Below, piece after piece: positions 31,963 to 35,005 of a stretch of DNA of 64,000 nucleotides. The DNA is from Methylobacterium sp. (GTDB lineage: Bacteria; Pseudomonadota; Alphaproteobacteria; Rhizobiales; Beijerinckiaceae). The stretch covers positions 17,870-81,869 of the forward strand of contig PNLY01000015.1 in the NCBI GenBank assembly GCA_013823325.1, read 5' to 3'. The position numbers were made by a program, and so were the translations under genes. Each line of letters begins with the position of its first letter. Position 1 is the stretch's first letter. The notes under the pieces were generated by a model that was given only the letters and a program-made list of their open reading frames with translations, searched no databases and was not told the DNA's origin.

Positions 31963-32241
31963 ATGCGCGTCCTGTTCGTCCTGATCGCCTTCGGCATGGT
32001 CGCGGTGCCGGCCCTGCTCGCACTGGCCCGCAGCGACCTGCCGCGCGGCCGGCGGATCGTGAATGCGCTGATCGTATTCCTGGCGCCGGCTTTCACGCTC
32101 GGCCTGATCCATGGCGTGCCGGAGCTCGACGGCAGGGCGCTGCAATACCCGGTTGCCTGGACGACGCTGCGGCTCGTCCTGACCGGCCTCGCCTTGATCC
32201 TGCCCTGGTGCCTCTATGTCTGGCTCAACGGCCGGCGCTGA
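31963..32241 (+). CDS. Small membrane protein, hypothetical
   Basis: 92 residues with three hydrophobic helices (VLFVLIAFGMVAVPALLALA, IVNALIVFLAPAFTLGLI, TLRLVLTGLALILPWCLYVW) and few loops. A weak ribosome region precedes ATG 31963. No known domain. It lies within the TRAP-SDR-ureohydrolase group, 19 bp before the next gene start, so co-transcription is plausible. Confidence 0.65.
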   Translation: MRVLFVLIAFGMVAVPALLALARSDLPRGRRIVNALIVFLAPAFTLGLIHGVPELDGRALQYPVAWTTLRLVLTGLALILPWCLYVWLNGRR

Positions 32242-32260
32242 CCCCCGACGGATTCCCGAC

Positions 32261-33217
32261 ATGACCGAACCTGCCGAAACCCCGACGATCGACCACGCCT
32301 TCACCGGCGACCGCAAGGGCCCGGCCCATGACCCGACCTATGCCGGCGCGCTTTCCTTCATGCGCCGCCGCTACAGCAAGGACGTCGCCGGCTGCGATGT
32401 CGTGGTCTGGGGCGTGCCCTTCGACCTCGCCGTCTCGAACCGGCCCGGCACGCGCTTCGGGCCGCAGGCGATGCGCCGCGTCAGCGCGATCTTCGACGGC
32501 GACGCGCAATATCCCTCGCGGATCGACCCGTTCGAAACGCTCGCCGTGGTCGACTATGGCGATTGCCTGCTGCCGCGCAGCGACCTGCAGGGCTGTGCCC
32601 GGGCGATCGAGAGCGAGGCCGCCGCGATCATCGCCAGCGGCGCCCAGCTCGTCACCCTCGGCGGCGACCATTTCATCACCCTGCCGCTGCTGCGCGCCCA
32701 TGTCGCCCGCCATGGCAGGCTCGCCATCGTCCAGTTCGACGCGCATCAGGACACCTGGGACGACGGCGTCGGCGCGATCAGTCACGGCACCTTCGTGCTC
32801 GAGGCGGTGCGCGAGGGGCTGATCGACACCGAGCGCTCGATCCAGGTCGGCATCCGCACCGTCGCGCCGCGCGATTGCGGCATCGAGGTGCTCGACGCCT
32901 ACCAAGCGCATGGGCTCGGGGTCGACGGCATCGCGGCGCGGATCAAGGAGCGTGTGGGGCAGGGGCCGGCCTATCTCACCTTCGACATCGACGCGCTCGA
33001 CCCTGCCTTCGCGCCGGGCACCGGCACGCCTGTCGCCGGCGGCTTCTCCTCGGCGCAGGCGCTGCAGCTGGTCTGGGCGATCCGCGATCTCGATTTCCGC
33101 GGCATGGACATCGTCGAGGTCTCGCCGCCCTATGATCATGCCGATGCGACCGCGATCGCCGGCGCTGCGGTGGCGCAGCATTATCTGCAGGCCTTGGCGC
33201 TGAAGAAGGCTGGTTGA
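32261..33217 (+). CDS. Agmatinase/ureohydrolase-family enzyme
   Basis: 318-residue binuclear manganese ureohydrolase (arginase/agmatinase fold). Metal ligands are conserved: H137 in GGDH, D160-A-H162-Q-D164, and D242-I-D244 in FDIDALDP. SHGTF (H175) and the GTGTP loop before GGFSS complete the site. It would release urea from a guanidino substrate; agmatine is one possibility. Neighbouring TRAP transporter and SDR genes suggest that an imported guanidino acid could be the real substrate. Start ATG 32261 was chosen over an upstream frame that lacks ureohydrolase sequence. Confidence 0.9.
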   Translation: MTEPAETPTIDHAFTGDRKGPAHDPTYAGALSFMRRRYSKDVAGCDVVVWGVPFDLAVSNRPGTRFGPQAMRRVSAIFDGDAQYPSRIDPFETLAVVDYGDCLLPRSDLQGCARAIESEAAAIIASGAQLVTLGGDHFITLPLLRAHVARHGRLAIVQFDAHQDTWDDGVGAISHGTFVLEAVREGLIDTERSIQVGIRTVAPRDCGIEVLDAYQAHGLGVDGIAARIKERVGQGPAYLTFDIDALDPAFAPGTGTPVAGGFSSAQALQLVWAIRDLDFRGMDIVEVSPPYDHADATAIAGAAVAQHYLQALALKKAG

Positions 33218-33310: not shown

Positions 33311-33826
33311 GTGCTGATCGTGTTCAGCGGACTGCCGGGTAGTGGCAAGACGACGCTTGCCCGCGAGCTCGCGGCAAGTCGGTCGGCGGCCTATCTGCGC
33401 ATCGACAGCATCGAGCACGCGCTTCGCTCTATATCGCCCGGCAGCGATATCGGGCCGGGTGGCTATGTCGTCGCTCTCGCGATCGCGGGGGGAAACCTTT
33501 CGCTCGGCATGGCCGTCGTGGCCGATTGCGTGAATCCGGTCGCCGAGAGCAGGGCGGCCTGGCGCGAGCTCGCTCGGGCTTCGGCCGTGCCGCATCTCGA
33601 CATCGAAGTCGTCTGTTCCAACAAGGCGGAGCACCGGCGCAGGGTCGAGCAGCGACGATCCGATATCCCGGGATTTGTCGTCCCGGACTGGACTTCGGTG
33701 GAGACACATGATTATCAGCCCTGGACCGGCGACCGGCTGATCGTCGACACGGCCGTCCTTTCGGTCGAGGACGCCCTGCGCCTGATCGAGGACCGATTGG
33801 CGTCCTTGGTGTACAGCGCCGATTGA
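33311..33826 (+). CDS. Small P-loop kinase (AAA_33/zeta-toxin-like)
   Basis: 171 residues. The P-loop GLPGSGKTT is at 7-15, and the AYLRIDSIEHAL segment (Asp-Ser after strand 2) and later RRRVEQRRSD resemble phosphotransfer kinases of the chloramphenicol phosphotransferase/zeta-toxin/gluconate kinase group. The substrate cannot be assigned. It begins at GTG 33311 directly on the P-loop strand (VFSGLPGSGKT). Its stop codon overlaps the -35 box of the argC leader promoter. Confidence 0.78.
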   Translation: MLIVFSGLPGSGKTTLARELAASRSAAYLRIDSIEHALRSISPGSDIGPGGYVVALAIAGGNLSLGMAVVADCVNPVAESRAAWRELARASAVPHLDIEVVCSNKAEHRRRVEQRRSDIPGFVVPDWTSVETHDYQPWTGDRLIVDTAVLSVEDALRLIEDRLASLVYSAD

Positions 33827-33851
33827 CAGGCAGCCGGGCAGGGAACATATA
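33823..33851 (+). promoter_or_regulatory. Promoter of the argC leader transcript
   Basis: TTGACA (33823-33828), a 17-nt spacer and CATATA (33846-33851): a near-perfect sigma-70-type promoter. It predicts a transcript start at about 33857-33860, essentially on the AUG of the leader ORF. Confidence 0.65.
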
Positions 33852-33858
33852 GCCCCGC

Positions 33859-33918
33859 ATGACCGTGAACCCGACCCGACGTCGCACCGAACAGGCCGCT
33901 CCGGCGCGCCCGCGATGA
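33859..33918 (+). CDS. Candidate arginine leader peptide (19 aa)
   Basis: The ORF MTVNPTRRRTEQAAPARPR (19 codons, stop TGA 33916-33918) lies between the promoter and the terminator that precede argC. Arg occupies positions 7, 8 and 9 (CGA CGT CGC) and again 17 and 19, so five of 19 codons are Arg. With the predicted start at about 33859 the ORF would be nearly leaderless, like TrpL-type leaders known from Rhizobiales. It would sense arginyl-tRNA supply by ribosome stalling. No translation evidence exists here. Confidence 0.6.
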   Translation: MTVNPTRRRTEQAAPARPR

Positions 33919-33947
33919 CGCTCGGCTTCCAGCCCGAACGCCCGCGA

Positions 33948-33971
33948 CCGCGCCCCGAGCGCGGTTTTTTT
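33948..33971 (+). terminator. Attenuator-type terminator before argC
   Basis: Stem CCGCGC/GCGCGG (33948-33953 with 33959-33964) with a CCCGA loop and a run of seven T (33965-33971). GGCGCG at 33903-33908, inside the leader ORF, is the exact reverse complement of CGCGCC at 33949-33954, so a competing antiterminator pairing is possible. Confidence 0.75.
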
Positions 33972-34072
33972 ATGCCCGTCGCAAAACTGATGTCCGGTCT
34001 TGCGACAAGGCCAAGTTCCAGAGCCAGCCAACCAGTTCCGCCCGCTTCCACCAGACGCCTTGCGAGGGTCCG

Positions 34073-35005
34073 ATGAGCCAGAACCTGAAATCCATCTTCA
34101 TCGACGGCGAAGCCGGCACGACTGGACTCGGAATCCGCGAGCGTCTCGCCGATGTGGCGGAAGTCGTGGTCAAGAGCATCGATCCCGACAAGCGCAAGGA
34201 TCCTGCCGCCCGCAAGGCGATGATGGCGGGCGTCGACCTCGTCGTGCTCTGCCTGCCCGACGATGCGGCCAAGGAATCCGTCGCGCTCGCCGACGAGCTC
34301 GGCAACGACGCGCCCAAGATCGTCGACGCCTCGACCGCTCATCGCGTCGCGCCGGGCTGGACCTATGGCTTCGCCGAGCTGGAGCCGGGCTTCGCGCAGA
34401 AGGTCGCCAACGCCAACCGCGTCGCCAATCCCGGCTGCTATCCGACCGGCGGCATCGCACTGCTGCGCCCGCTCGTCGATGCCGGCTTGCTGCCGAGCGA
34501 CTATCCCGTCACCGTCAACGCGGTCTCCGGCTATTCCGGCGGCGGCAAGAGCATGATCGAAGCCTATGAGGCCGGCACCGCGCCCGATTTCGAGCTCTAC
34601 GGCCTCGGTCTCAAACACAAGCACCTGCCCGAACTGCAGGTCTATTCGCGGCTGGAGCGGCGGCCGATCTTCGTGCCGTCGGTCGGCAATTTCCGGCAGG
34701 GCATGCTGGTCTCGGTACCGCTGCATCTCGACACGCTGCCCGGCAAGCCGAAGCCCGCCGATCTCGAAGCGGCGCTGGCCGAGCGCTATGCCGGCTCGAC
34801 CTATGTCAGCGTCCTGCCGGCCGATGCGAGCGGCAAGCTTGAGCCTGAGGCGCTGAACGACACGAACAAGCTGGAATTGCGCGTCTTCGGCAACGCCGAT
34901 CTCGGCCAGGCGGTACTCGTTGCCCGGCTCGACAATCTCGGCAAGGGAGCCTCCGGTGCCGCCGTCCAGAACATCCGGCTGATGCTCGGCCTGCCGGAAG
35001 GCTGA
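34073..35005 (+). CDS. argC: N-acetyl-gamma-glutamyl-phosphate reductase, type 2
   Basis: Third enzyme of arginine biosynthesis: NADPH-dependent reduction of N-acetylglutamyl phosphate to the semialdehyde. The 310-residue length and the compact GEAGTTGLGIRERL nucleotide-binding start mark the short type 2 ArgC. The catalytic cysteine C122 is in NPGCYPTGG, with GYSGGGKSMI and the HKHLPEL active-site histidine loop downstream. It begins 101 bp after the attenuator terminator and is the only evident biosynthetic gene on that transcript. A CGAGGG ribosome-like site lies 5 nt before ATG 34073. Confidence 0.95.
   Translation: MSQNLKSIFIDGEAGTTGLGIRERLADVAEVVVKSIDPDKRKDPAARKAMMAGVDLVVLCLPDDAAKESVALADELGNDAPKIVDASTAHRVAPGWTYGFAELEPGFAQKVANANRVANPGCYPTGGIALLRPLVDAGLLPSDYPVTVNAVSGYSGGGKSMIEAYEAGTAPDFELYGLGLKHKHLPELQVYSRLERRPIFVPSVGNFRQGMLVSVPLHLDTLPGKPKPADLEAALAERYAGSTYVSVLPADASGKLEPEALNDTNKLELRVFGNADLGQAVLVARLDNLGKGASGAAVQNIRLMLGLPEG

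Follow-up and report, generated by a model that had tools for sequence, protein, structure and literature searches.

A probable arginine-specific attenuator with a leaderless leader peptide before type-2 argC in Bosea and related Alphaproteobacteria

Classical amino acid attenuators (his, trp, leu, ilv, thr, phe) combine a run of cognate codons, a terminator and a competing pairing with a biosynthesis gene downstream, and we know of no arginine member of this group. In this study we examine a short arginine-rich open reading frame (ORF), for which we propose the name argL, together with the terminator that follows it, upstream of a type-2 argC gene in contig PNLY01000015.1 of assembly GCA_013823325.1; the window is the whole stretch of 64,000 nucleotides (nt) that was analysed. 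argL resembles the classical attenuators in its codon run, its terminator, a proposed competing pairing and the biosynthesis gene behind it, but has no clear 1:2 hairpin. We consider it highly probable that argL is a ribosome-mediated transcription attenuator specific for arginine, governed by the supply of arginyl-tRNA.

The closest described systems are the leaderless trp leaders, which are established in rhizobia (PMC7298713, PMC10117765). As is predicted for argL, the rnTrpL/peTrpL transcript of Sinorhizobium meliloti starts from the ATG of a 14-amino-acid ORF with consecutive cognate codons and ends in a terminator (PMC7298713, PMC10117765); unlike rhizobial trpL, argL would read arginine instead of tryptophan, precedes argC or argD instead of trpE(G), uses codons limited almost to one tRNA, and is known from sequence alone. 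The uORFC-8-2 motif before cysS in Rhodobacterales is likewise an alphaproteobacterial leader with tandem cognate codons and predicted attenuation (PMC8632094), but its amino acid is cysteine and the gene downstream encodes an aminoacyl-tRNA synthetase. Upstream ORFs that sense arginine through Arg codons occur in Salmonella (speF orf34) and Staphylococcus aureus (rbfL) (PMC6386406, PMC13009471); these precede polyamine or biofilm-regulator genes and work by way of Rho, RNase G or a block on translation initiation, whereas argL, in contrast to speF orf34, has argC downstream and an intrinsic terminator before that arginine biosynthesis gene.

Arginine genes are also controlled by arginine T-boxes (noted in PMC1262725) and by ArgR. 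No Rfam family reached its gathering score in the leader region, and a permissive scan of 33700-34200 gave three sub-threshold matches, the best with an expectation value (E) of 2.4. The ArgR C-terminal domain (PF02863) was found in none of 61 genomes of the order, this one included, while eight of 14 controls were positive; ArgR is described as conserved in gammaproteobacteria and absent from the other classes studied (PMC5343134). Among the matches listed in the open-access literature, as represented by titles and abstract openings, none concerned attenuation by a leader peptide ahead of an arginine biosynthesis gene, and the words arginine, argC and arg are absent from the main text of PMC2965389.

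The leader, its terminator and the proposed mechanism

The initial annotation had described a promoter, a short ORF with three consecutive and two further Arg codons, and a GC-rich hairpin with seven T residues some 100 base pairs (bp) before argC. A script check returned the same promoter, ORF and codons, and the coordinates of hairpin and gene were confirmed. In window coordinates the elements are:

33823-33828, + strand: -35 element TTGACA (letters, script check; the TTGAC spacing is kept in relatives)
33846-33851, + strand: -10 element CATATA, 17 nt from the -35 element (letters, script check; CATA or CATG kept)
33859-33918, + strand: leader ORF argL, 19 codons, peptide MTVNPTRRRTEQAAPARPR (letters; genus model matches; leaders compared)
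33877-33885, + strand: putative regulatory codons CGA CGT CGC, Arg7-Arg9 (Arg in 35/35 distinct Bosea leaders)
33903-33908, + strand: region 2, GGCGCG in codons 15-17, proposed 5' strand of the antiterminator, with the conserved core GCGCG at 33904-33908 (fold)
33911-33946, + strand: proposed inner helices of the antiterminator, 33911-33914/33943-33946 and 33919-33925/33934-33940 (fold, 36 Bosea leaders)
33947-33971, + strand: intrinsic terminator, with a 7-bp stem 33947-33953/33959-33965, loop 33954-33958 and seven T at 33965-33971 (sequence; aligned in relatives)
34073-35005, + strand: argC type 2, N-acetyl-gamma-glutamyl-phosphate reductase, 310 amino acids (TIGR01851.1, 407.9 bits, cut-off 229.85)

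The leader ATG at 33859 lies 7 nt past the -10 element, so that the predicted transcript start and the start codon coincide or are no more than about 2 nt apart; besides codons 7-9, codons 17 and 19 also encode arginine. The GC-rich terminator stem could gain an eighth pair (33946-33966), and 101 bp separate its T run from the argC ATG at 34073. Its left arm contains CGCGCC (33949-33954), the exact complement of region 2, as the initial annotation had pointed out for the window; among 36 Bosea leaders the core GCGCG is present in all 36, and the first G of GGCGCG in 20. The promoter is called on the conserved TTGAC spacing, because a simple scan of 33400-34400 listed no promoter there, missing that of the leader since CATATA ends in A.

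Under the mechanism that we propose, RNA polymerase would start at or beside the ATG of the 19-codon leader, and the leader would be translated as a leaderless mRNA. With ample arginyl-tRNA the ribosome would run on to the UGA and cover region 2 (33903-33908), allowing the terminator (33947-33971) to form and ending transcription before argC; a shortage of charged tRNA-Arg(ICG) would stall the ribosome on CGA-CGU-CGC (codons 7-9) and leave region 2 free to pair with the left arm at 33949-33954, so that no terminator would form and argC would be transcribed. From the conserved ORF with its Arg run, and the terminator that follows before an arginine gene, we infer that slow translation at the leader Arg codons is probably how the cell detects a lack of arginine. 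With a run of cognate codons and an intrinsic terminator before the first structural gene, argL has two of the features by which attenuators are recognized, and judged by these it would be an arginine-specific addition to the ribosome-mediated class, its antiterminator and its response to arginine being predictions.

Conservation, codon choice and reading frame

The leader, its Arg run and codon bias, the terminator, the linkage to arginine genes, the conservation and the reading frame can all be followed in related sequences. The genus of the relatives was taken as Bosea from the nearest named argC relatives (96% identity), and the best 80 of 570 named argC loci were compared. By eye the leader was present in 43 of these 80, including all 21 loci of at least 82% identity (L001-L020 and L077); the sequence upstream of it differs among argC loci, and the leader is nevertheless conserved. 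In each of the 44 leaders picked by eye, that of the window and those of the 43 loci, TTGAC starts 35-37 nt before the leader ATG, the script having allowed 29-43, and CATA or CATG stands as the -10 element in 38 of the 43 aligned leaders.

Because these leaders had been selected by eye, a mechanical detector was added, which requires a hairpin and T run behind an ATG-initiated ORF of 9-40 codons that has either RRR, or RR and no fewer than four R. It reported leader and terminator in 41 of the 80 argC upstream regions (L027 being doubtful, and L040, L051 and L068 being missed though accepted by eye), against about 0.6 expected; the controls, 1042 kb from the same loci on both strands, held 19 matches, none with TTGAC at 34-38 nt. 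A search of the genome for TTGAC-N28-33-ATG-N15-36-CGACGNCG gave 14 sites (15 rows, with one site counted twice), compared with two for the reversed pattern, and the full design is present at only two of the 14, the leaders of the genome's two argC genes. This result is one of specificity and no full census, because the pattern was derived from known leaders and the assembly is 95% complete.

A covariance model (R1) built from 43 sequences and running from the leader ATG to the T run, promoter excluded, matched 60 of 61 genus genomes at an E of 1e-8 or better; about half of these matches were read, and among the others those in G470, G474, G475 and G478 are weak or partial. In the 35 distinct Bosea leaders arginine occupies codons 7-9 without exception and codon 7 is always CGA, while the amino acids of codons 2-6 and 10-12 vary freely. 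Little or no change is found in codons 13, 14 and 16-19 (A A. A R P R), which encode the proposed region 2.

Codon choice and folding were studied in 67 hand-picked leaders (66 distinct, L246 being the same as L031), which include 22 Bosea type-2 leaders and leave out five of the ten f20 leaders, L253 and L254; L040, in which the script detected no terminator, was not folded. Since the leaders are related, the codon and frame counts are not independent events. The longest Arg runs comprise 78 CGA, 63 CGC, 49 CGT and four CGG codons, such that CGA, CGC and CGU make up 190 of 194, and the first codon of the run is CGA in 59 of the 67 leaders. By comparison, the 1431 Arg codons in the argC genes of the 80 loci are 47.7% CGC, 36.0% CGG, 7.3% CGT, 5.8% AGG, 2.4% CGA and 0.8% AGA. 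The genome has one tRNA-Arg gene each with anticodons acg, ccg, cct and tct among 42 tRNA matches. tRNA-Arg(ICG), with anticodon acg, reads CGU, CGC and CGA by inosine wobble; given the single acg gene and a run of CGA, CGC and CGU, one tRNA reads nearly the whole Arg run. For enteric bacteria the reading of all three codons by one tRNA is stated in PMC4046918, which also reports, from Salmonella his-leader reporters, that CGA is read slowly and that an Arg codon (not AGG) together with CGA gives the highest loss of attenuation.

The run also keeps its frame. In the first 75 nt of the 67 leaders, CGACG is in frame in 72 of its 73 occurrences, and 67 of these stand 18, 21, 24, 27, 30, 33 or 36 nt from the ATG, that is, in whole-codon steps; such persistence of frame across changes of length would not be expected of a motif acting as RNA only. 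Frame and codon selectivity are indirect signs of translation of the leader. The initial annotation had held that the absence of a conserved short ORF or of Arg codons in relatives would refute an attenuator; the invariant Arg7-Arg9 and the in-frame CGACG show the reverse and support that reading.

Related leaders before type-1 argC and argD

The genome carries a second argC gene, of type 1 (TIGR01850.1, 288.1 bits), and this too is preceded by such a leader:

G000:C39 44248-44492, - strand: second leaderless Arg-run leader and terminator, before type-1 argC (L233, L265, L410)

Its TTGAC is followed 36 nt on by the ATG of a 32-codon ORF that contains RRRRR, and a terminator comes next; outside the Arg run this leader bears no obvious sequence resemblance to the first. 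There are 23 full-length copies of type-1 argC in the 61 genus genomes, this one included, and all have a leader of this kind; in this genome and in 22/22 relatives (L266-L287) it has three to five consecutive Arg codons, with TTGAC 35-38 nt before the ATG. Several relatives (for example L274, L277, L279 and L286) carry the palindrome GCGACAGTGTCGC in a position overlapping the -10 region, immediately 5' of the second leader's ATG; it is absent from the second leaders of L276, L282, L285 and L287, and could be the site of a regulator.

Beyond the genus, leaders of a similar kind stand ahead of argC in Microvirga, Chelatococcus and others; another family has them before type-1 argC, and two genomes before argD. 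Order, family and class samples, which overlap in part and include some loci identical to named ones, were searched with R1. The order sample (397 genomes) gave 19 matches with E below 1e-8, of which seven lie before type-2 argC, ten before type-1 argC (all in family f20), one before argD and one before a RidA-like gene (L095, L096 and L092 carry NCBIfam names; the other genes were assigned by similarity and N-terminal sequence). In the family sample (60 genomes) the 18 best matches, with E up to 2.5e-8, are all before argC (17 of type 2 and one of type 1), and the class sample (385 genomes) gave four strong matches besides that of the window, three before argC and one before argD. In the f20 genus g26 (L096-L105) type-1 argC is preceded by a leader of this design whose ORF is shorter. 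Among leaders in general, the distance from terminator to argC varies between about 41 and 152 nt. Leaders of the same design before type-2 argC, type-1 argC and argD thus lend support to the arginine attenuation first suggested for the window.

Weaker matches to R1 were of another kind. At an E of 0.01 or better 233 of the 397 order genomes have a match, and those that were read are mostly bare terminators; among 11 loci read at E between 4e-8 and 1e-6, L116 alone precedes argC and the others were rejected, as were L084-L087, L261-L264 and L398. A sixth match in the class sample (6e-8) was judged spurious.

The proposed switch and alternative readings

Folding bears on the initial annotation's further proposal that GGCGCG could form an antiterminator with the left arm of the terminator. 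If a ribosome is modelled on the first Arg codon and RNA synthesis has reached the terminator loop, the left arm has an upstream partner in 66/66 leaders. In the window this nascent fold consists of 33903-33908:33949-33954 and the inner helices (-25.7 kcal/mol); when the ribosome is placed on the stop codon, the fold is reduced to the terminator and a helix of two pairs (-13.9). Region 2 begins a median of 25 nt past the run (interquartile range 24-27, range 13-44), with a median of 15 nt left to the end of the stop codon. Five f20 type-1 leaders were folded; counted from the start of the run, their stop codon ends at 27-30 nt, compared with 36-42 in most others, and the pairing site still starts 26-29 nt after the run; a constant pairing distance in these short leaders is what a stalled-ribosome mechanism would need. 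The inner helices are paired in 97.9% and 92.1% of cells in the 36 Bosea leaders. Pairing of the Arg run with the stop region, as in the 1:2 pause hairpin of classical attenuators, was counted in 42 distinct leaders and rejected, the best register having 6.12 of ten pairs against 5.71 and 5.19 at shifts of -3 and +3.

Several results weigh against the attenuator as we describe it, and most concern this switch. The complete exposed RNA of the window, right arm included, favours the terminator (-35.0) when it is free from 33890 or 33893 and the antiterminator (-33.4) only when it is free from 33896; the antiterminator is the minimum-energy fold of the full exposed RNA in 40 of 66 leaders, the window not among them. 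The untranslated (naked) leader of the window also folds in an antiterminator-like form (-42.1 kcal/mol), so that behaviour without translation is not accounted for by the model. The pairing of region 2 with the left arm beats shuffled sequences (p<=0.05) in nine of 66 leaders, with a median z of -0.72 and p of 0.355 for the window; own partners exceed swapped arms only weakly, 139 of 2000 permutations being as good; and the 36 leaders within Bosea contain no compensatory change on both antiterminator sides. Between families, co-changes are apparent by eye in L041, L252 and L096/L097, and are not counted as proof. Because shuffles, swaps and covariation give little support, the antiterminator/terminator switch in the window leader is plausible only: the similarly placed pairing site holds in most leaders, while covariation and the preference of the fully exposed window RNA give the proposal little backing.

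Other contrary points lie in the distribution. The leader is patchy outside the genus, and the range suggested at the outset was partly wrong: among the named loci, 5/5 of Rhodopseudomonas and 4/5 of Bradyrhizobium have no TTGAC-spaced leader before argC, and in the order survey such a leader occurs in three of 64 further type-2 argC upstream regions and is missing from the other 61. A survey of type-1 argC, which excluded five f20 genomes with R1 matches near argC and about one third of the 194 genomes with a match, yielded it in 65 upstream regions only at this genome's own gene. argD is not a general target, with a TTGAC-spaced leader in none of 30 argD loci of the order sample (L314 is a detector match lacking it); only L095 and L394 have one, and the argD frame of L394 (G513:C51) breaks off at an in-frame stop, 226 codons in, which reflects a sequencing error or a broken gene. 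The very Bosea-like leader of L092 (G224:C2) precedes the RidA-like gene and a small ORF, not argC, and is the sole exception to the linkage with arg genes among the 19 strong order matches. The Arg run is weak in some relatives, with RR in L247 and L249 and only R.R in L254 and L068.

There is a different account of the same leader peptide, in which stalling at the Arg run would control Rho access, mRNA decay or translation of argC, and the hairpin would be a minor or constitutive terminator. Upstream ORFs with Arg codons that act in such ways exist in speF orf34 and rbfL (PMC6386406, PMC13009471), and the modest showing of the antiterminator in shuffles, swaps and covariation leaves room for them; however, whether the gene downstream is type-1 argC, type-2 argC or argD, the leader is followed by a GC-rich hairpin and T run, and the variable distance between terminator and argC is ill-suited to direct blocking of the argC start, so that we regard this account as improbable. 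More improbable still is a separate small RNA (sRNA) gene similar to Sinorhizobium rnTrpL, ending at the terminator and acting in trans, with argC under its own promoter. Promoter, short leaderless ORF and terminator would together give an sRNA of about 113 nt, and the trp attenuator of S. meliloti does yield a trans-acting sRNA and peptide (PMC7298713); yet the linkage with argC and argD is kept across families, the peptide varies outside RRR and the region-2 codons, and no promoter-like site is listed at 33971-34073, a weak point in that the same scan misses the leader's own promoter. An sRNA role may be additional to attenuation and not an alternative to it.

That the leader is a product of chance, an Arg-rich ORF in a GC-rich genome beside the ordinary terminator of the upstream gene, appears to us extremely improbable. 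The region is GC-rich, Arg-rich short ORFs are common, and bare terminators prevail among the weak model matches that were read; but the excess of detector matches over expectation, the restriction of the full pattern to the two argC leaders, the enrichment of CGA and depletion of CGG in the Arg runs, and conservation of the leader beneath differing upstream sequence all argue otherwise. If arginine attenuation before argC is true, it would be part of the answer to how arginine is controlled where ArgR is missing, and would add arginine, so far missing, to the amino acids known to be sensed through attenuation at a leader peptide. The strong bias towards CGA-CGN, decoded by a single tRNA, offers a natural test of the theory that attenuators pick codons whose tRNA is the first to be discharged or the slowest to be decoded, and the small leaderless design is easily testable. 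More speculatively, Alphaproteobacteria without ArgR might possess an RNA-based arginine regulon of leaderless attenuators that read the charging of tRNA-Arg(ICG) through a slow CGA heading the run, a device that would have arisen more than once on unrelated genes (type-2 argC, type-1 argC twice, and argD) and whose terminated RNA or peptide might act in trans like rnTrpL/peTrpL; we put this forward as a tentative idea, doubtful as it stands.

Some smaller features accompany the leader. At window positions 33913-33920 the last sense codon, CGA, is followed by UGA and CG (CGATGACG), a motif with no clear pairing partner that is kept in most leaders of alignment A1, beyond Bosea as well. In L051 (Microvirga flocculans) the leader is present and an inserted repeat-like stretch seems to split the hairpin, such that the terminator looks interrupted. 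Upstream of the type-2 argC on the same strand lies an agmatinase gene (32216-33217; NF002564.0), and between this and the leader a small kinase-like ORF (33311-33826; weak partial match), the stop codon of which overlaps the -35 box.

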